Both the position numbers and the translations under genes were made by a program. A stretch of 54,643 nucleotides of DNA, from contig JAPLXG010000004.1 of assembly GCA_026396175.1 (NCBI GenBank), forward strand, positions 1-54,643, read 5' to 3'. This DNA comes from Candidatus Moraniibacteriota bacterium. GTDB taxonomy: Bacteria; Patescibacteriota; Minisyncoccia; Moranbacterales; UBA2206. Each line of letters starts with the position of its first letter. The stretch's first letter is position 1. The notes under the pieces were generated by a model. That model was not told where the DNA came from and searched no databases. It saw nothing but the letters and a program-made list of their open reading frames with translations. Shown here one piece after another: positions 2,511 to 26,903 of the stretch.

Positions 2511-5500
2511 CTACTTCCTACTTAATACTTCTTTTAGGTATTTCCCCGTCCAACTCTCCTTATGCCACTTCGCAACTTCTTCCGGCGTGCCGGAAACGAT
2601 TACTTTCCCGCCCTCTTTCCCACCTTCCGGTCCCAGATCAATAATCCAATCGGCGGTTTTGATTACGTCTAGGTTATGCTCGATTACAATCACAGTATTA
2701 CCCGCATCAACTAAGCGATTGAGAATTCCCAATAATTTTTTGATATCATCAAAATGCAAGCCTGTCGTTGGTTCGTCTAAAATATATAAAGTATCCCCTG
2801 TCGCCCGGCGAGACAGTTCAGTGGAAAGCTTGATTCGTTGCGCTTCTCCGCCGGAGAGTGTCGTGGCGGATTGGCCGAGTTGAATGTAGCCCAAGCCGAC
2901 ATCTTCCAAGACTTTGAGTTTGTCGGCAATGTCGTGAAAATTGGCGAAAAATTCGCGCGCTTCGGAAATGGTCATCGCCAAGACATCGGCAATGTTTTTA
3001 TCGCGATATTTTACTTTGAGCGTTTCGCTGTTGTAGCGTTTCCCAGAGCAAACATCGCACGGCAAATAGACATCCGGCATAAATTGCATTTCAATTTTGT
3101 TGTATCCATCGCCTTCGCAATTATCGCATCTTCCCCCACGAACATTAAAGGAAAATCTTCCCGGCGAATAGCCTTTCGCTTTGGCATCGCGCGTCTCAGC
3201 AAACAGCTCGCGAATCGCCGTGAATAGTCCCGTGTAGGTCGCCGGATTAGATCTGGGTGTGCGACCAATCGGTGACTGATCAATCATAATCACTTTGTTG
3301 AGATAGTGATCACCCACAATTTCGCTGTGCTTGCCCGGCCGTTCCAGCGAACGCATAATCTTAGCTGAAAGAGCTTTATATAATATATCTTCAACCAGAG
3401 TTGATTTGCCTGAACCAGATACACCAGTCACGCAGGTCAAAACTTTGAGTGGAAACGACACAGTAATGTTTTGCAAATTATGCTCGCGCGCTCCGCGCAC
3501 CACGAGTGTTTTTTTATTTTTGAGCGATCGCCGAAAAGCCGGAATTTCAATCTGCATTTCCCCTCGCAAATATTTCGCGGTGAGGGAATTTTTGCTTTTC
3601 ATCACTTCTTCGGGCGACCCTTGCGCCACAATTTCTCCGCCGTGTTTTCCCGCACCCGGCCCAATGTCCACGAGATAATCCGCCGCACGCATTGTTTCTT
3701 CGTCGTGCTCCACAACAATTAAAGTATTGCCGACATCTCTGAGTTGCAAAAGTGTGGCAAGCAATTTTGCGTTATCGCGCGCATGAAGTCCAATTGATGG
3801 TTCGTCAAGAATATAGAGCACGCCGACCAGTTGCGAACCAATTTGGGATGCCAAGCGGATGCGTTGGGATTCACCGCCGGCTAGAGTGTTCGCGGCGCGA
3901 CCAAGCGAAAGATACCCAAGACCGACGTCTTGCAAAAAGCCCAAACGGTTTTGAATTTCTTTGAGGATCCGACTGGCAATTAATTCTTCGCGCTTACTCA
4001 AATTTATTTTTTGAAAAAAATCCAAAGTTTCTCGCACGCTAACATTGGAAACTTCCTGGATGTTTTTATTTCCCACGGTTACGAGTAGCACCTCTTTTTT
4101 ATAGCGTGAACCTAGACAAGTCGAGCAGGGATTTTGCGACATATATTTTTCAATATCTGTGCGCACGCCTTCTGAATCTGTTTTGAGATAGCGATCTTGC
4201 AAATAGCCGACCACTCCCCGCCAACGCATATTATATTTCCAACTTGATCCAGTTTTGCTCCGCAAAGTCACCGGAATTTCGTCCGCCTCTTCTTCGGCAA
4301 TCATATCCTGGGCTTCCGGTCTGCCATAAAGCAAAGTATTAAAGTCATCGTCAGATAAATCCCGCAGCCGCACATTATCGCGGATATGATAGAAATTCGT
4401 CACAGCGCGCAAAATCGTCCCCTGCCAATTATTTTTCTTGTAACTCCACGGCATAATTCCGCCTTCAGCGATAGTTTTATTCATATCCGGCACAACCAAA
4501 TCTGGATCAATCTCTTTTTTCACGCCCAAACCTTCGCAAGATGGGCAAGCACCAAAAGGACTATTGAAAGAAAACAAGCGTGGCTCCAGTTCGGGAAAAT
4601 CCACCTCATGCACCGGACAAGAAAAATTCTGATTAAAAATCATCCCGCTGTTTTCATTTTTTTCTCCATCTGTAGCACTGCTTGTTTTTTTATCCTTTTT
4701 GTCATTGGTATTTTGGGTTTTGGATTTGATTTGAAATTGGAAATTTGAAATTGGAAATTTTACCCTCACTATGCCCTTGGAAAGTTTCAGTGCTTGCTCT
4801 ACGCCTTCAAAAATCCGCGAAATATTCTCGGAATTAATTTCCACCTTGTCGACCAAAATATCAATATTATGTTTTTTGTAGCGCTCCAACTTCACCCGCG
4901 TCCCAATCTTTTCATCCAGCGTATATTTTTTTCCATTGACTACTGCGGTGGAAAAACCGCGCCGGAACATTTCCTCAAGGAGCGTCGAGTATTCACCTTT
5001 GCGCTCTCGCACAATCGGAGAAAAAATTTCAATCGCGCACCTAGACGCATTAAAATGCGTCTCTACATTATTTTTTACGTCACAAACATTCAAAATTCGA
5101 TCCACAATTTCATCTGTGGAAAGTTTCACGATTTCGTGACCGCAGATGGGACAATGCGCCACGCCGATTTTAGCATAGAGCAAACGCAAATAATCATGAA
5201 TTTCCGTCACCGTTCCCACAGTTGAACGCGGATTATGTGAAGCGGCTTTTTGATCAATCGAGATCGCCGGGCTTAGTCCTTCAATCGAATCAACTTCCGG
5301 CTTTCCCATTTGCCCCAAAAATTGCCGCGCATAGCTCGAGAGACTTTCGAGATATCTCCGTTGCCCTTCGGCAAAAATGGTATCAAAAGCCAGCGTACTC
5401 TTCCCTGAGCCGCTGATCCCGGTAAAAACAATAAATTTATTCCGCGGCAGGTCAAGGTTTACATTTTTCAAATTATGCTCTCTTGCACCGCGAATGATTA

Positions 5501-5513
5501 ATTCATCTTGCAT
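2511..5513 (-). CDS. uvrA: UvrABC system protein A
   Basis: Two ABC cassettes: GISGSGKSTLAFDTIFAEGQRRYLESLS, GVSGSGKSTLVEDILY, TLSGGEAQRIKLSTEL. Confidence 0.97.
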   Translation of the reverse strand: MQDELIIRGAREHNLKNVNLDLPRNKFIVFTGISGSGKSTLAFDTIFAEGQRRYLESLSSYARQFLGQMGKPEVDSIEGLSPAISIDQKAASHNPRSTVGTVTEIHDYLRLLYAKIGVAHCPICGHEIVKLSTDEIVDRILNVCDVKNNVETHFNASRCAIEIFSPIVRERKGEYSTLLEEMFRRGFSTAVVNGKKYTLDEKIGTRVKLERYKKHNIDILVDKVEINSENISRIFEGVEQALKLSKGIVRVKFPISNFQFQIKSKTQNTNDKKDKKTSSATDGEKNENSGMIFNQNFSCPVHEVDFPELEPRLFSFNSPFGACPSCEGLGVKKEIDPDLVVPDMNKTIAEGGIMPWSYKKNNWQGTILRAVTNFYHIRDNVRLRDLSDDDFNTLLYGRPEAQDMIAEEEADEIPVTLRSKTGSSWKYNMRWRGVVGYLQDRYLKTDSEGVRTDIEKYMSQNPCSTCLGSRYKKEVLLVTVGNKNIQEVSNVSVRETLDFFQKINLSKREELIASRILKEIQNRLGFLQDVGLGYLSLGRAANTLAGGESQRIRLASQIGSQLVGVLYILDEPSIGLHARDNAKLLATLLQLRDVGNTLIVVEHDEETMRAADYLVDIGPGAGKHGGEIVAQGSPEEVMKSKNSLTAKYLRGEMQIEIPAFRRSLKNKKTLVVRGAREHNLQNITVSFPLKVLTCVTGVSGSGKSTLVEDILYKALSAKIMRSLERPGKHSEIVGDHYLNKVIMIDQSPIGRTPRSNPATYTGLFTAIRELFAETRDAKAKGYSPGRFSFNVRGGRCDNCEGDGYNKIEMQFMPDVYLPCDVCSGKRYNSETLKVKYRDKNIADVLAMTISEAREFFANFHDIADKLKVLEDVGLGYIQLGQSATTLSGGEAQRIKLSTELSRRATGDTLYILDEPTTGLHFDDIKKLLGILNRLVDAGNTVIVIEHNLDVIKTADWIIDLGPEGGKEGGKVIVSGTPEEVAKWHKESWTGKYLKEVLSRK

Positions 5514-5523
5514 AATAATACAC

Positions 5524-5713
5524 TGTCATTCCCGCAAAGGCGGGAATCCAGGTTCCACTAGTTATAAACTCTCGAAAATCGAATTGAGAATTCTCTAGCT
5601 TTATGTTTCAGTTAGCTTACTGCTTAATTAATTCGTATTATTTATTATCTATAGCCCGAGGTGCCTGGATCCCCGCCGGAGTTTATACTCGTGAAACGGG
5701 TGCGGGGATGACA
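5524..5713. repeat. Non-coding TIR element with TGTCATTCCCGC... / ...GCGGGGATGACA ends
   Basis: TGTCATTCCCGCAAAGGCGGGAATCCAG ... CTGGATCCCCGCC(inserted loop)GCGGGGATGACA; starts ~11 bp upstream of uvrA ATG. Confidence 0.7.
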
Positions 5714-5785
5714 CAAAAAATTTAGTATAGTTTAGTTTAAAACTTTTTGACTTTTCCTGCAAGCCAATGACTTAGATAAAATAAT

Positions 5786-5816
5786 AGCCGGCTTCAGATC
5801 GCTGAAGTCGGCTAAA
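5786..5816 (-). terminator. hairpin downstream of the small-ORF cluster
   Basis: AGCCGGCTTCAGATCGCTGAAGTCGGCT imperfect hairpin 3' of the minus-strand gene. Confidence 0.4.
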
Positions 5817-5839
5817 GTCCTGGTACCGCTGGGACTGGA

Positions 5840-6025
5840 TTAATAAAAAATTACAACATTCCCTGATTCGAGAGAGATGTCTTTTTTTACCCCTTTGTTA
5901 AGATCAAATGAGTTGGATCCGAGTTCAACTGTTTTCGAGCTTGCAACTGAGGCTGGATCATATCTGTATACTTTCTCGATAAACTCACCGAGAGTTTTCG
6001 AGTCTACAACTGGAAATTCCGGCAT
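5840..6025 (-). CDS. hypothetical small protein (61 aa), resembles 8209..8403
   Basis: SD-like AAGGAGAT before ATG; C-terminus NVVIFY. Confidence 0.55.
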   Translation of the reverse strand: MPEFPVVDSKTLGEFIEKVYRYDPASVASSKTVELGSNSFDLNKGVKKDISLESGNVVIFY

Positions 6026-6737: not shown

Positions 6738-7259
6738 TTAAGGTTCCGTCCTTCTGGGGCGCTTTTTATTTTTATACCCCAATTTATCTTTTAACTCATT
6801 AAGAAAAGCAAGTCTATTCCGAGCCGTTTTCTTTATGAGCGCTGAATAATTATGCATATCCGGAATTAACACTTTTTCTAATTTGTCATTTTCTAATAAA
6901 TATTTAATCAAACAATAAAAATCACCATCGCCTGTCACAATAACCGCTTTCTCATATTCCCGATAATCAATCATTGACTGTAGGACGAGTTCCGCATCGC
7001 AATTACCCTTTATTCTGCCATCCTTATTTTTTAATGTTGGCTTAAAAACTATTATGTAGCCATTTTTCTGTAAAGAATTATACAGATTTTGATTTTCCGG
7101 AACATACCCTATAAATATGTAGGCTATTTTTACTTTATACTTTTCTTTCAGATAAACTCTAAATTTGAAAAAATCCAACTTCCAGCCCAAACGTTGAATT
7201 GATAAATTCAAATTCTGGCTATCGATAAACGCATAGTTTTTTACCTCTTTATTTTGCAT
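6738..7259 (-). CDS. NYN domain (LabA/DUF88-like) putative nuclease
   Basis: YAFIDSQNLNLSI, CDAELVLQSMID, AVIVTGDGDFYCLIKYL. Confidence 0.85.
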   Translation of the reverse strand: MQNKEVKNYAFIDSQNLNLSIQRLGWKLDFFKFRVYLKEKYKVKIAYIFIGYVPENQNLYNSLQKNGYIIVFKPTLKNKDGRIKGNCDAELVLQSMIDYREYEKAVIVTGDGDFYCLIKYLLENDKLEKVLIPDMHNYSALIKKTARNRLAFLNELKDKLGYKNKKRPRRTEP

Positions 7260-7272
7260 ACTTTTTGTTTTC

Positions 7273-7932
7273 TTATAAACTCACATATTTCACCGGCAAA
7301 ACTTTGCGGAAAATTCCGGCGAAAATGAATGAGTCGGATTTGTGGATGAAGATTGGTTGATGGATCGGATTGGTTGATTTGGGAAAAAGGCCAATCACAT
7401 CTTCGCTGACTTTTTTGTAGCGCTTGATGGTTGCCATTCCATTCACTACCGCAACAACAATTTTGCCTTCCAACTCTTCCTGCTGTTCATATTTTTCAAA
7501 AATGACATAATCGCCGTCGTTGATTTTTTCTTTGTCCATTGAATCGCCGAGAGCCTTCACCGCAAAAAGTAGCGACTCGTCTTTGTCGCGAAAAAGGGCT
7601 TTAGAAATTTGCAAAAAGCCATCGACATTATCCTGCGCATAGGCCAGCGCTTCGCCGCAAGACGCCAAGCCATAGACTGGAACAGAGAAGATATTTTTGA
7701 AATTAGTATAATTCTTATTTTCCACCAGATAAATTTTCTTTTTCTTGTCGCGCTTGATCAAATCTTTTTTCTCCAACGATTCAATCACTTGCATCACCGA
7801 TTTCAAACTGTCTCTCCCGCCTTGGGACTCTAAAAATTTTTGCAAACGATAACTAGTGGGGTTTTCTTTCCCCTGACTAATTAGTTCTCGAATTGATTCG
7901 AGAATGTTTTGTTGTTTGGCCGTTAGAAGCAT
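7273..7932 (-). CDS. lexA: LexA/UmuD-like self-cleaving repressor (S24 peptidase family)
   Basis: N-terminal winged-helix-like segment; VPVYGLASCGEALAY cleavage region; catalytic GDSM and GMATIKRY Ser/Lys dyad. Confidence 0.85.
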   Translation of the reverse strand: MLLTAKQQNILESIRELISQGKENPTSYRLQKFLESQGGRDSLKSVMQVIESLEKKDLIKRDKKKKIYLVENKNYTNFKNIFSVPVYGLASCGEALAYAQDNVDGFLQISKALFRDKDESLLFAVKALGDSMDKEKINDGDYVIFEKYEQQEELEGKIVVAVVNGMATIKRYKKVSEDVIGLFPKSTNPIHQPIFIHKSDSFIFAGIFRKVLPVKYVSL

Positions 7933-8547: not shown

Positions 8548-9645
8548 TTAATTTCCGCAAGCAGCTCCGGCAGCAGCGCCAGAACCAGCAGGGGCAGTCC
8601 CCTCACCAAATCCTGATGCGGGAGCAGTTGTTGAAAGAGTTGTTGAACATTCTTTTGGAGCAGTTTTGAATCCGGAACAGATTGTTTTGAGAAGACTGGC
8701 TGAATCTCGTCCAGCGGCAGAAGCTTCCGCGCCATTGATCACGAGCGTCGGAGAACCTTTCACGCCATATTTATCATTGTCCGCTTTGTTCACCTCAAAC
8801 ATTGGGAAAGTTCCTTGATAGGTACTCTTGTCCTGGAAATCTTTCGTCACATTAAACTGTTTGTCTGCTTGGGTCATACAACTTGCCACTGTTGCGGCAT
8901 TGACGCCGGCAGATTGCATACAGCTGGTTTCTGTTCCTTTTCCGACCTTAAGAAAGCAGGTCAGATAGGTGCTCAGCTTGGCCGGTTGATTTTTTTGGAT
9001 ACAATATTGTCGCAAGTTTTCATCCAACTCTTTTCGGTCATTAGAAGCGAGGTCATTATGCATCGAGTAGGACACAAATTTCAAAGTATAATTGATCTTT
9101 GCTCCCAAGGCAGTAATGGCCGGGATGATGCCTTTTTCAATTTGCGTTCCATATGGGCAATAACTCATCACAAACAATTCCACCGTTGGTTTGTCGGTTT
9201 TGGGAATATCTGCTTGTTTCGCCGCCGCAGCTTGACTGGCGTCCGGCTTAGCTTTCTGTTCGATCTCGGCGATATCCATCACGCTGGGAAAAAATTTCGT
9301 TCCATCGACTGAAAGGTAGGAGGTGATGGTTTGTTTTTGTGTTCCCTCACCAATTTCCACCGCTACCTTAAACATTCCGTTCTCCTTGGTCACCGAAGCA
9401 ATATTCGCCTTCATTCCGCCTTGCATCAAATTATTGTTGATGAAATCCTCCACTTTCGTCTTCGCCTCAGCCTCACTTAAATTGTGCTTTTTCCAAACTA
9501 ATTTATAGTAAGCAAATCCACCAAGCACAACCACCAACAGCACCGTGGCGATTATTTTTGGCAGATGTTTTTTATACTTCTCGCAACCACACTTGTTTTT
9601 TTCACAACAGTCCGCGTCTTTGGACTCTTTTTTTTCTTCTTCCAT
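8548..9645 (-). CDS. Membrane-anchored thioredoxin/DsbA-like protein
   Basis: Single N-terminal TM; VELFVMSYCPYGTQIEKG; late cis-Pro-like GSPTLVING. Confidence 0.75.
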   Translation of the reverse strand: MEEEKKESKDADCCEKNKCGCEKYKKHLPKIIATVLLVVVLGGFAYYKLVWKKHNLSEAEAKTKVEDFINNNLMQGGMKANIASVTKENGMFKVAVEIGEGTQKQTITSYLSVDGTKFFPSVMDIAEIEQKAKPDASQAAAAKQADIPKTDKPTVELFVMSYCPYGTQIEKGIIPAITALGAKINYTLKFVSYSMHNDLASNDRKELDENLRQYCIQKNQPAKLSTYLTCFLKVGKGTETSCMQSAGVNAATVASCMTQADKQFNVTKDFQDKSTYQGTFPMFEVNKADNDKYGVKGSPTLVINGAEASAAGRDSASLLKTICSGFKTAPKECSTTLSTTAPASGFGEGTAPAGSGAAAGAACGN

Positions 9646-16258: not shown

Positions 16259-17299
16259 CTAAAGATATTTCTCCAACCCCCGCACCTTTATCTCTTTAAC
16301 TAAACTAGAAATCCTAACCACATCATCCTTGTGCACAACCACGATGGCGTCTTTGGTATTGACGACCACCATACCTTTGAGGCCGACTGTCGTCACTATT
16401 TTTCCTGGTTCAAAATTATAGACCAAACTATCCTTTGTTTCAAAGTCCACCACATGGCCTTTGGTCACATTCGAATCACTACTTTTTTCCAGTGCTTCTT
16501 TCAGCGCATAGAGTGTGCCAGGATCACTCCAACCCATATTGGTTTTGAGGATGACAGCGCTCGAAAGATCAACTTTTTCGATGATGGCGTTGTCAAAAGA
16601 CAGTTTTTCGCACGTTTCATATTTTCCCTTGGTCACACATTTGAAAATTTCCGGTGCTAGTTTTTTGTAGCAATCATGCAAAAATTCCACAGAAGTGATG
16701 AAGTAGCCAGGGTTCCAATAATATTCGCCTGATTTAAACATCTGATCGCAAAGCGCTTTTTCCGGTTTATACTTCCAGCCTTCAAAACCAAAATAATCGC
16801 GCTTCCCAATCTCCCCCTTTTGATCTCCCACTTTCATCCAGCCCAAATTATTATTAGCAAAGCGCGGACGCTCAGCAATGAACACAAAACGATCGGATTT
16901 TTGCTCAATCAATTTTTCACCCGCTTTCAGGGCTTTCGTAAATTCGCCAACCCGATCCATTAAATGATCTGCCCAAACAATTGCCATCGGGCCACTGTGA
17001 CCCATTTTGACCAATTGATTAACGGCAAAGCAAACGGCCGGACCATTATCCCTTCGGGCCGGTTCAAGAAAAATATTGCCTTTTGGCAAACCGGGAAGTT
17101 GTTTGCGAATCATTTTCTGATAGGCCGGCATGGTTTGGATAAAAATATTTTTCGCGCCAAAAGCGGGGGCCACTCGATCATAGGCTAATTGCAAAGTGGA
17201 TTTCCCATTAAAAATCTTATCAAACTGCTTGGGAGAATTTTCCCGAGACAGTGGCCACATTCTTGTTCCGACTCCTCCGGCGGAGATAACTATTTTCAT
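16259..17299 (-). CDS. manC: mannose-1-phosphate guanylyltransferase
   Basis: ISAGGVGTRMWPLSRENSPKQF signature; ORF-track start 17320 lies in the adjacent repeat. Confidence 0.92.
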   Translation of the reverse strand: MKIVISAGGVGTRMWPLSRENSPKQFDKIFNGKSTLQLAYDRVAPAFGAKNIFIQTMPAYQKMIRKQLPGLPKGNIFLEPARRDNGPAVCFAVNQLVKMGHSGPMAIVWADHLMDRVGEFTKALKAGEKLIEQKSDRFVFIAERPRFANNNLGWMKVGDQKGEIGKRDYFGFEGWKYKPEKALCDQMFKSGEYYWNPGYFITSVEFLHDCYKKLAPEIFKCVTKGKYETCEKLSFDNAIIEKVDLSSAVILKTNMGWSDPGTLYALKEALEKSSDSNVTKGHVVDFETKDSLVYNFEPGKIVTTVGLKGMVVVNTKDAIVVVHKDDVVRISSLVKEIKVRGLEKYL

Positions 17300-17308
17300 A
17301 GTGTTTTT

Positions 17309-17437
17309 ATCCCCCACCACTTTCTTGCTTATTATAATGCTCTATTCCATAAACTACTCCCGTGTGCTTATGAAATATGGCACCAACTCAACATTTCTAA
17401 TCACGCATAAAATGCGAGCAAAAAAGTGGTGGGGTAT
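17309..17437. repeat. GTGGTGGGGGAT-TIR element, copy 3
   Basis: ATCCCCCACCACTTTCTTGCTT ... GCGAGCAAAAAAGTGGTGGGGTAT. Confidence 0.82.
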
Positions 17438-20846: not shown

Positions 20847-21671
20847 TTATTTATTGCTCAGATACTTTTGATAGGCTTTTTCGTCGTGCAGATGCACCCA
20901 ATCTTGGTCTAATTGATATCCATACAGCTCGCCTTGCTGGGACAGAGTTGGAAAGATGTCACGCTCCATTGAGATATTGGCTTTTTTGGCCAGAGCAAAA
21001 ACGCCCGGTTCGAGAAAATAGACACCGCCGCTCACCAGGGGCAACACTCTATCCTTGGTAGATGGCTTTTCACTAAAGCCCGTAATTTTTGGCCCTTTCA
21101 TCGTGACCGCTCCCAGCCCAACTGGATTATTGACTACCGCCACGCTAAGCGTCGCCAAACCGCCTTGCTTTTTGTGATAATTATACATATCCTCAATATC
21201 AATTTTGTCTAAAAGAATATCGCCATTCATCATCAGAAATGTTTCCTTGAACTGCTTTTTAACATGCACAAACATTCCGGCCGTGCCACTCTTTCCTTCT
21301 TCATAGAAACTAATTGCTACTCCCAGCTTTTCACCATTCCCGACAACTTTTTTAATTTCGCTCACCCATTCGCGCGCGGAGATGATCACTTCGCTAACGC
21401 CGAAGCGTTTCAGGGTTTCGAGATTTTTTTCGAGCAGGGTTGTCTTTCCTAGTGGCACCAAAACCTTGGCAATAGTTTTGCTACCCAACTTCACTCCCTG
21501 TCCGCCGGCCAAGATAACCGCTTTGTTGAGAATATGATGCTTGAGAACGATTGTCTCAATCGCATTAGACCGATTGCGCACCTTCTCGCCGTCGATAATA
21601 GTATCGATTTTATTCATCACATCCGAGCGGATGGTAATGGTAATTCTTTCTCGTCGCATATTTTTGAGCAT
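20847..21671 (-). CDS. sugar-phosphate nucleotidyltransferase with N-terminal ribbon-helix-helix domain
   Basis: RRERITITIRSDVMNKIDTIIDGEKVRNRSNAIETIV followed by AVILAGGQGVKLG. Confidence 0.85.
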   Translation of the reverse strand: MLKNMRRERITITIRSDVMNKIDTIIDGEKVRNRSNAIETIVLKHHILNKAVILAGGQGVKLGSKTIAKVLVPLGKTTLLEKNLETLKRFGVSEVIISAREWVSEIKKVVGNGEKLGVAISFYEEGKSGTAGMFVHVKKQFKETFLMMNGDILLDKIDIEDMYNYHKKQGGLATLSVAVVNNPVGLGAVTMKGPKITGFSEKPSTKDRVLPLVSGGVYFLEPGVFALAKKANISMERDIFPTLSQQGELYGYQLDQDWVHLHDEKAYQKYLSNK

Positions 21672-21721: not shown

Positions 21722-21860
21722 TGTCATCCTGAGCGAAGCGGAGCGAAGTCGAAGGATCTACTTTCTATTATCATAAGCCCTGCTATTAATTAGAAAGCTC
21801 TGGGTTACGGTTAGCAGATCCTTCGGCTGCGTCTGAGTACAGACTTCGCTCAGGATGACA
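21722..21860. repeat. TIR element with TGTCATCCTGAGCGAAG ends
   Basis: TGTCATCCTGAGCGAAG...GAAGGATCT ... AGATCCTTCG...CTTCGCTCAGGATGACA. Confidence 0.8.
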
Positions 21861-21936
21861 GGTTTAATTTAAGCATGTAGGTCTTATACCCAAACAATCA
21901 CATTATATCATACAAAAACAGCCCCAATCAACAGGC

Positions 21937-21974
21937 TTGACAAAATATCAATGGTATGATAGTATCATACCATT
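21937..21974 (+). promoter_or_regulatory. sigma70-like promoter overlapped by a 25-bp operator-like palindrome
   Basis: TTGACA-17 nt-TAGTAT; AATGGTATGATA-G-TATCATACCATT at 21950..21974. Confidence 0.6.
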
Positions 21975-22045
21975 AGTTTTTTGACAAGCAGACGGCTTCA
22001 AAACCGTCGAAAATATTAACCGCAACTAATCAGAGGAGGAGCAAC

Positions 22046-22432
22046 ATGAATAGTCTGACATTTTTTATTTTTGTATTTTTGATAAGCGTGATTATGACAC
22101 TAGTTGGCAACTCGACCGGTGCAACAGCACTCTTGTTTAAACTTCCTTGGTGGGTCGCTCTCAGCTATTACATGGCCAATATACTCTTTGGAATGGCAAT
22201 TTATCTAGCAAGTTGCCGTTTCGTAAAATGGTGGAAGTGGGCGCTATTGGTGGTCATAGCTGTCGTTGAAGTTCAGGTCAGAAATGCAACTGGGGCCACG
22301 CTAGCTCTAAGCGGGCTATCTAGATGGCATGTATGGATATTTTCCTTGCCCATATATGCTATGGGAATTTTCCTAGCCATTTGGATAAGAAAACTACATG
22401 AAGAAAGGAGGTGGAGGAAAAGGAAAAAATAA
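22046..22432 (+). CDS. hypothetical integral membrane protein
   Basis: GAGGAGG SD before ATG; multiple hydrophobic segments. Confidence 0.65.
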   Translation: MNSLTFFIFVFLISVIMTLVGNSTGATALLFKLPWWVALSYYMANILFGMAIYLASCRFVKWWKWALLVVIAVVEVQVRNATGATLALSGLSRWHVWIFSLPIYAMGIFLAIWIRKLHEERRWRKRKK

Positions 22433-22580: not shown

Positions 22581-24020
22581 ATGAAAGTAAACCCAAATAT
22601 TTTTCGGGGCTATGACCTGCGGGGCATTGTCGACAAAGATCTTAGTCCGGAAATCGCCGAGCATCTTGGCAAGGCGCACGGAACGTATATGAAAAGGCAC
22701 GGCGTGACGAAAGCGGTGGTTGGACGTGATTGTCGATTTACCAGCGCCGAGTATGGTGAAGCTCTCATTCGCGGATTTAGTTGGGCTGGGGTGGACACAA
22801 TTGATATTGGAATGTGTTTAGTGGGGACTTTTTATTGGGCGCAGTATTATCTCAAATCACCCGGTGGCGCATTTGTCACTGCTTCGCATAATCCCTCGGA
22901 ATATAACGGCTTCAAATTCGCGATTGATTTTTCCGAAACGCTGGTCAGCGAAAGCATCCAGGAAATTCGCCGAATGGTTGAGGAGGAAGATTACGTTCAA
23001 GGCGAAGTGTCAGGAAAGATTGAAAAGCAAGATATTGGTGAGGCTTACTTTCAAGATTTAAACAAGCGATTGCCGATCACGAAAAAATTCAAAGTTGTTG
23101 TTGATCCAAGCAATTCCACTGCCGGCGCAATTGTGCCAGAATTTTTGCGAAAAATTGGTTGTGAAGTTGTAGAAAAGAATTGTAATATTGACCCATCGTT
23201 TCCATCGGGAACGCCCGATCCAACCGAAAGCCTAGTTGCGAATAGAATAAGCCAAGAAGTTCTCGAAGCAAAAGCGGATATCGGATTTTCCTATGACGCC
23301 GATGGCGATCGCATTGGCATTGTTGACGACAAGGGTGGAATCATTTGGAACGACGTGTTGGTCGCTATTTTTGCCACTGATGTTTTGCACACGCATCCGG
23401 GAGAAAAAATAATGTATAACACCCTATGTTCAAAAGTGGTGGAAGACACAATCCTGGCCAATGGTGGCGTTCCTTTTATGTGGCGAACCGGCCATTCATT
23501 TCTCAAGAAAAAAAATCAAGAAGTGAAAGCGGCATTCATTGGAGAACTTTCCGGCCACTTCTTTTTCTCGGCTGATTTCTATAACCACGACGATGGAATC
23601 TATTCCACTTTGCGCCTGCTCGCCTATCTCTCGCGAACAAATCAATCCCTTTCAGAAGTGGTTGAGAAATTGCCAAAATACATCTCTAGCCCGGAAATTA
23701 AACTGGGTTGCCCCGATGACCAGAAAGTTGCCCTAATTGAAAAAATGAGCGTAGTGCTGGAAAAAGATTATCCTGAAGCTGAAGTGATTTCTGACGAGCG
23801 CGCGGGCGATGGCGTCAGACTCAACCTGACTGATTCAATGTTTGTAGTGCGCTATTCCCAGAATGGACCATATCTCACCATCAAGTTCGAAGCACAGACC
23901 CAAGAGCGCTATGACGAACTGAAAAAATATCTCAATGAATTTCTGCATGGTTATCCAGAAGTAGACTGGACCGGAAAAACCATCACTACAGTCAATGCGG
24001 AGGCGATTGAGCTAGACTAA
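22581..24020 (+). CDS. manB: phosphomannomutase/phosphoglucomutase
   Basis: IFRGYDLRGIVD; VTASHNPSEYNGFK; DADGDRIGIVD; GELSGHFFF. Confidence 0.93.
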   Translation: MKVNPNIFRGYDLRGIVDKDLSPEIAEHLGKAHGTYMKRHGVTKAVVGRDCRFTSAEYGEALIRGFSWAGVDTIDIGMCLVGTFYWAQYYLKSPGGAFVTASHNPSEYNGFKFAIDFSETLVSESIQEIRRMVEEEDYVQGEVSGKIEKQDIGEAYFQDLNKRLPITKKFKVVVDPSNSTAGAIVPEFLRKIGCEVVEKNCNIDPSFPSGTPDPTESLVANRISQEVLEAKADIGFSYDADGDRIGIVDDKGGIIWNDVLVAIFATDVLHTHPGEKIMYNTLCSKVVEDTILANGGVPFMWRTGHSFLKKKNQEVKAAFIGELSGHFFFSADFYNHDDGIYSTLRLLAYLSRTNQSLSEVVEKLPKYISSPEIKLGCPDDQKVALIEKMSVVLEKDYPEAEVISDERAGDGVRLNLTDSMFVVRYSQNGPYLTIKFEAQTQERYDELKKYLNEFLHGYPEVDWTGKTITTVNAEAIELD

Positions 24021-26624: not shown

Positions 26625-26903
26625 CTACTTCCAATACTCGCGGAGCCACCGCATCGGACGATTTACCGCTCTTTCTCCCTCTTTTTGAACTACCGAGGAT
26701 TCCTCGGATGTTCGTTTTTCTTCCAATTCTCTTTCTGTGTAGATATTTTTTAGATGCAAAGCAACATTATCCACACTACAATCAAAAAGTTCCGCCATTT
26801 GCTTTTGTGAAAGCCACACTGTTTCACCATCAAAACGCACATCAATCTTAGTCTCGCCCGTTTCTGTTTTGTAGATAATTATTTGTGATTGCGGTTGTTT
26901 CAT
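26625..26903 (-). pseudogene. RhuM-family N-terminal fragment
   Basis: KIDVRFDGETVWLSQKQMAELFDCSVDNVALHLKNIY; stops after ~92 aa. Confidence 0.6.

Follow-up and report, generated by a model that had tools for sequence, protein, structure and literature searches.

A putative transcription regulator of Patescibacteria and DPANN archaea joins a NikR-like DNA-binding domain to a sugar nucleotidyltransferase with a degraded active site

The window, by which we mean the whole 54,643-nt stretch of Candidatus Moraniibacteriota DNA analyzed here, encodes a protein in which a ribbon-helix-helix (RHH) DNA-binding domain is fused to a sugar nucleotidyltransferase (NTase) domain that lacks several catalytic residues. 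We think it rather likely that this protein is an autoregulated repressor whose dead NTase domain serves as a sensor of sugar nucleotides, here of the mannose/GDP-mannose supply. Considering that catalytic residues are eroded, that the pocket positions are kept and that a matching DNA site lies at its own promoter and ahead of its relatives, the RHH-NTase probably represents a widespread type of sensor, as yet undescribed, by which sugar-activation genes are switched.

An earlier note on this DNA had described a fusion of these two domains at positions 20847-21671, and the fusion was borne out. A NikR/CopG-like RHH domain occupies residues 5-44 and an NTP_transferase domain (PF00483) residues 50-258, and both halves lie in a single continuous frame in every relative that we read. 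The fusion is therefore real and not a product of joining during assembly or annotation. The coordinates stand except for the start. The minus-strand ORF at 20847-21671 encodes 274 aa from an alternative upstream ATG at 21671, but the internal ATG at 21659 is probably the real one, because a 76% identical relative from a Falkowbacteria MAG (L052) begins there (MRRKRITITIRSD). This gives a likely gene extent of 20847-21659 and a protein of 270 aa.

The RHH domain (21540-21659, minus strand) carries the family motif RxTxT ... [IV][RK]NRS[HN]AIE. Of the profile searches that the earlier note had proposed, the one for NTP_transferase scored above its cut-off, while that for RHH_1 did not when the window protein was used as a single sequence (PF01402, E=0.12). 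This single-sequence Pfam search was indecisive, and a family profile was required. Such a profile, built from 27 members, made the assignment firm, matching the solved NikR structure 1q5v at E=4e-7 and CopG weakly. In addition, 16/53 family members matched RHH_1 at E≤0.01, and the window sequence itself matched the NikR model TIGR02793 over residues 8-42 (E=1.6e-4). In the AlphaFold2 model, an extended N-terminus is followed by helices at residues 12-22 and 30-40. This is the beta-alpha-alpha order of the RHH fold that the earlier note had placed in residues 1-45, predicted with a confidence (pLDDT) of 55-66 in the domain against a mean of 88.9 for the whole model. A Foldseek search with the isolated 46-residue domain, a low-confidence fold, returned NikR as the best match (E=0.47); a weak match is expected because the RHH fold needs its dimer. 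In the window's clade, R9, T11, T13, N33 and S35 are present in 12/12 members. The domain thus has the beta-alpha-alpha order and conserved polar strand residues of the MetJ/Arc/NikR group. In NikR, the residues of the R-x-T-x-T strand make the base contacts.

The NTase domain (20886-21524, minus strand) was recognized with confidence, as PF00483 matched at E=9.7e-24 with 84.7 bits (cut-off 21.2). This half folds confidently in the AlphaFold2 model, and its nearest solved folds include GDP-mannose pyrophosphorylases, among them the GMPPA/GMPPB complex (Foldseek, best E 1.6e-18), so that both profile and fold place it in the PF00483 superfamily. Active sugar-1-phosphate NTases possess the GxGxR Arg, a PK motif and two metal-binding Asp residues, a set that the window protein does not have in full. 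In the 274-aa numbering, it has K61 in place of the Arg, A68-K69 in place of Pro-Lys and H260 in place of a metal-binding Asp; D151 and K69 are kept. The same holds for its well-supported clade in the phylogenetic tree (n=12), where the catalytic Arg (R61) was found in 1/12 members, the PK Pro in 0/12, the PK Lys in 3/12 and the second metal-binding Asp (D260) in 0/12, whereas the pocket positions G129, T130, E201, K202 and G216, as well as W258, were each present in 12/12. We take E201/K202 and the glycines to be contacts to sugar, phosphate and base, roles that we transferred from RmlA-type enzymes by alignment rather than by way of a liganded structure. Catalysis has likely been lost from the window protein, to judge by these substitutions. 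Some other NTases may stay active despite substitution at one catalytic position, and the loss is therefore likely rather than proven. Pseudogene decay was rejected, since both halves are under purifying selection (pN/pS between the window gene and L052 of 0.05 for the RHH and 0.21 for the NTase half).

Other branches of the family differ in the state of the active site. Archaeal members kept the Arg in 32/33 cases and both the PK Lys and the first metal-binding Asp (D151) in 33/33, with position 260 occupied by D in 26, N in five and P in two. Bacterial members outside the window's clade nearly always kept the PK motif and both Asp residues, and had the Arg in 10/54 cases. The presence and absence of the Arg require at least seven changes on the tree. 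At the other extreme, nine shortened relatives of 207-224 aa (L167-L175) have deleted the EKP motif along with the catalytic loops but kept the RHH domain, and three of the nine have exact operators. The loss of the EKP pocket motif from this subfamily means that sugar sensing is not universal. Several genomes carry both shortened and full-length forms.

A direct repeat, GTATGA-N4-GTATGA, recurs upstream of RHH-NTase genes. Its core, TATGA-N5-TATGA, was present without mismatch in 29/78 upstream regions of the family versus 2/621 control regions, taken upstream of the remaining genes of these loci (Fisher 4e-28). With up to one mismatch allowed, the counts were 45/78 and 11/621, respectively, leaving 33/78 family regions (roughly 40%) with no operator at this threshold. 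The signal is specific to a period of 10, as the remaining periods between 5 and 18 yielded 0-3 exact matches, and dinucleotide shuffles predicted a mean of 0.07 exact repeats. After dereplication of similar proteins, the exact repeat remained in 11/25 regions, and it occurred in 10/30 loci that had not been used for motif discovery. Archaeal members had the operator in 6/32 regions exactly and in 16/32 with up to one mismatch. A reversed-motif control, AGTAT, gave 7/78 exact matches. This control is not clean because AGTAT occurs within the operator itself, and we relied instead on the shuffles, the other repeat periods and the other upstream regions. Repeated half-sites at predicted promoters are what would be expected of the operators of an RHH factor.

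The position and form of the operator vary among relatives. In L052, it lies 30 bp before the ATG. In L053, the exact palindrome of the window, GTATGATAGTATCATAC, is found just after the RHH-NTase gene (8850-8866), 86 bp before a gene for a 347-aa protein with no Pfam match, which suggests a second target. In two Doudnabacteria loci, GTATGA occurs three times in a row with a 10-bp step, about 500 bp (L082, 509-534) and 380 bp (L083, 7610-7635) upstream of the RHH-NTase gene. The operator is mostly absent from eight Gottesmanbacteria-type loci (L087, L090, L093, L095, L099, L105, L107 and L115). Their RHH-NTase genes often follow UppS and mevalonate-pathway genes and appear to lie within other operons, and may thus be controlled differently or have another role.

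In the window, two candidate operators lie between the fusion gene and a divergent operon. Site A (GTATGATATAATGTGA, 21898-21913, minus strand) is a direct repeat. It overlaps the -10 box, TATAAT, of a promoter predicted at 21931-21902 and directed toward the fusion gene. At site B (AATGGTATGATAGTATCATACCATT, 21950-21974), an inverted repeat without mismatch contains the -10 boxes of two predicted promoters, one with TTGACA on the plus strand (21937 to 21965) and one with TTGTCA on the minus strand (21987 to 21959). These two promoters belong to a near-symmetric region of 55 bp (21935-21989), whose 27-nt arms are 85% complementary. Within the 54.6-kb window, site A ranks first among direct repeats and site B first among inverted repeats. 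The score of site A, 15 bits, is low for the family (range 8-30). A pattern search of the 976-kb genome at up to one mismatch found site B as the sole match to its 17-bp core, and three matches to the direct repeat, site A among them. The uniqueness of site B and the few direct-repeat matches suggest that the regulon is probably local, comprising the fusion gene itself and the divergent operon, which encodes the small hydrophobic protein and the phosphomannomutase. A 139-bp palindromic repeat element (21722-21860) with perfect terminal inverted repeats of 17 nt now separates the operators from the fusion gene. Its end sequence, TGTCATCCTGAGCGAAG, occurs 55 times in the genome at up to one mismatch, often as facing pairs about 120-140 bp apart, which places the element in a MITE/REPIN-like family.

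Sugar-activation genes surround the fusion gene. The first gene after the plus-strand promoter in site B (22046-22432, plus strand) encodes a hydrophobic protein of 128 aa with no Pfam match, and a phosphomannomutase/phosphoglucomutase gene (PMM; 22581-24020, plus strand) likely lies within the same divergent operon. On the other side are genes for cupin-type mannose-6-phosphate isomerase (PMI; PF01050, 20353-20757, plus strand) and glucose-6-phosphate isomerase (GPI; PF06560, 19730-20338, plus strand), and a ManC-type mannose-1-phosphate guanylyltransferase gene, identified by profile, whose GVGTR and PK motifs are intact (16259-17320, minus strand). Further away, a 92-aa minus-strand ORF (26625-26903) has an N-terminus that, when its translation was read by eye, resembled a RhuM/DNA-binding virulence-type domain and appeared truncated. 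Locus L054 repeats much of the GPI/PMI/PMM/ManC set, together with TrpRS. Directly downstream of the RHH-NTase gene and on the same strand, 22/30 archaeal loci have a phosphohexomutase gene, which in most cases overlaps or is no more than 40 bp away, and 9/39 bacterial loci have ManC. The suggestion of the earlier note that the protein couples nucleotide-sugar metabolism to transcription thus gains support from the operator conserved upstream of the family's own genes, from the operator pair in the divergent promoter region and from the association with phosphohexomutase and ManC in operons. Since catalytic residues have been lost from the window protein, this coupling is more likely to operate by sensing than through a working bifunctional enzyme.

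We also determined how widely the fusion is distributed, as the earlier note had advised, and found relatives in both Patescibacteria and DPANN archaea. The fused N-terminus was present in 3/55 near-relative genomes and in 16/384 genomes of the class, the window's own genome being counted in both, and a search of the phylum found matches spanning the RHH domain to the protein end in about 43/380 genomes. A scan of one genome per species revealed 233 places that encode relatives. The best 80 of these were mainly from Patescibacteria and DPANN archaea (Woese-, Aenigm-, Alti- and Nanoarchaeota and Diapherotrites), together with a single contig of an Aminicenantes MAG and a few records labeled simply as bacterium or archaeon. 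These 80 were selected on the RHH (NRS) motif, and conservation of the motif among them is therefore not evidence. The Aminicenantes contig (L084) groups with Woesearchaeota in the tree and is thus either a mis-binned archaeal contig or a case of transfer. A Diapherotrites contig (L106) contains a pair of distinct RHH-NTase genes separated by about 1 kb (5071-5877 and 6896-7741), with sugar epimerase and UDP-glucose dehydrogenase genes as neighbors and an operator-like site overlapping or abutting the start of the first. A literature search, conducted largely without subscription articles, found no description of the fusion or its operator, nor any match for RHH together with mannose-1-phosphate guanylyltransferase; the architecture may be listed in automated domain databases.

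Taken as a transcription regulator, the NikR-like RHH fused to a sugar-1-phosphate NTase would act as follows. An RHH dimer would read TATGATA subsites through its R-x-T-x-T strand, and the regulator would bind sites A and B, which lie where its own gene and the phosphomannomutase operon diverge. Once bound, it would cover the -10 boxes and so repress both. The NTase half would make no nucleotide sugar, but would bind one, or its sugar phosphate, and the bound ligand would set the affinity of the regulator for DNA. For the window protein, the ligand may be mannose-1-P or GDP-mannose; a mannose-pathway ligand is likely because GPI, PMI, PMM and an intact ManC surround the fusion gene. The fusion, its spread, the operator and the overlap with predicted promoters come from computation, and the missing catalytic residues from the sequence itself. 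DNA binding and self-control are well supported by these data, while repression, binding as a dimer, the identity of the ligand and the direction of the switch are what we infer. Those archaeal relatives whose active site is intact probably still work as enzymes while repressing their own operon as well, which would be the ancestral state.

This last description could be extended to the window protein itself, as a working sugar NTase that represses its own operon until binding of substrate or product releases it from the DNA. The nearly invariant Arg, PK Lys and D151 of the archaeal members, their mostly conserved D260 and the phosphohexomutase genes that follow them are in line with it, as is the precedent of PutA, an autorepressor in which RHH and enzyme are joined (PMC5293562). 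It is probably right for the archaeal relatives and less so for the window protein, where we find it unlikely, as the clade has lost the Arg, the Pro of the PK motif and the second metal-binding Asp, and a gene for an intact ManC lies 3.5 kb from the fusion gene. Slightly more doubtful is that the protein is an autorepressor only, in which the NTase remnant binds no ligand and forms a dimer or tetramer scaffold that sets the operator spacing. The short relatives without catalytic loops and EKP, which nevertheless keep the RHH domain and sometimes the operator, point in this direction; the pocket positions shared by all 12 members of the window's clade and the purifying selection on the NTase half argue against it.

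It is very improbable that the N-terminus is an oligomerization tag or a chance look-alike of an RHH domain in a protein that does not bind DNA. The sub-threshold RHH_1 score and the low AlphaFold2 confidence would fit such a look-alike, but the family profile matches NikR, the R/T/T strand residues and NRS are conserved, and a matching operator recurs upstream of the family's genes. A fusion of an RHH antitoxin to an NTase toxin of the AbiE/MNT kind has in its favor the general knowledge that, in toxin-antitoxin systems, RHH proteins are common as antitoxins and NTases as toxins. We give this reading hardly any credence, considering that the domain is a PF00483 sugar NTase with a GDP-mannose pyrophosphorylase fold rather than one of AbiEii/MNT type, and that the gene context is sugar metabolism. 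No AbiEii/MNT domain was found among Pfam hits to the window protein up to E=1. No full-length match to it was found in phages, and the plasmid matches listed covered the NTase part alone, except for weak ones (23-28% identity) that extended further. Domain type and the pattern of phage and plasmid matches led us to reject the toxin-antitoxin reading as well as that of a mobile element.

The preferred reading, that of a repressor with an NTase-derived sensor, places the RHH-NTase among RHH regulators fused to enzyme or ligand-binding domains. Like NikR, it has an N-terminal RHH domain with a matching strand and NRS motif and, as proposed here, a C-terminal domain that senses a ligand. Its operator hexamer, GTATGA, is identical to the half-site of the E. 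coli NikR site, GTATGA-N16-TCATAC (PMC7055735), which fits the R-x-T-x-T strand that the two have in common. The half-sites are arranged differently. Those of the RHH-NTase are either repeated in tandem every 10 bp or inverted across a gap of 5 bp, whereas those of NikR are inverted across a gap of 16 bp. Moreover, the sensor domain of NikR binds metal, whereas the C-terminal half of the RHH-NTase is PF00483 and not a Ni-binding domain. In the trifunctional proline utilization A protein (PutA), an RHH domain is fused to a metabolic enzyme and acts as an autogenous repressor (PMC5293562). Archaeal RHH-NTases resemble trigger enzymes of this kind, but the PutA enzyme is unrelated and catalytically active, unlike the window's clade with its missing catalytic residues. 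GMPPA, a non-catalytic paralog of the GDP-mannose pyrophosphorylase GMPPB that binds GDP-mannose and acts in feedback control (PMC11228364), has the same NTase fold and provides a precedent for a dead NTase that binds a nucleotide sugar, although it acts on the enzyme through protein contact and has no DNA-binding domain. The PF00483 domain and fold are also found in the sugar-1-phosphate nucleotidyltransferases MurU, RmlA and ManC, which are active enzymes without RHH.

Little is known about gene control in genome-reduced Patescibacteria and DPANN archaea, for which this family, the DNA site that goes with it and the genes it likely controls constitute a testable set. The operator was found in bacterial and archaeal members alike. 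We judge the chances to be evenly balanced that these proteins form a single transcription-factor family across both domains, in which a retired NTase site senses a nucleotide sugar or sugar phosphate, the GTATGA operator is shared and the steps from active enzyme to deleted site are still visible. The series from intact through catalytically dead to deleted active sites would then represent a natural record of the change from enzyme to regulator. If true, these probably host-dependent organisms would possess an enzyme-derived sensor of their supply of activated sugars, which is limiting for building the cell envelope.
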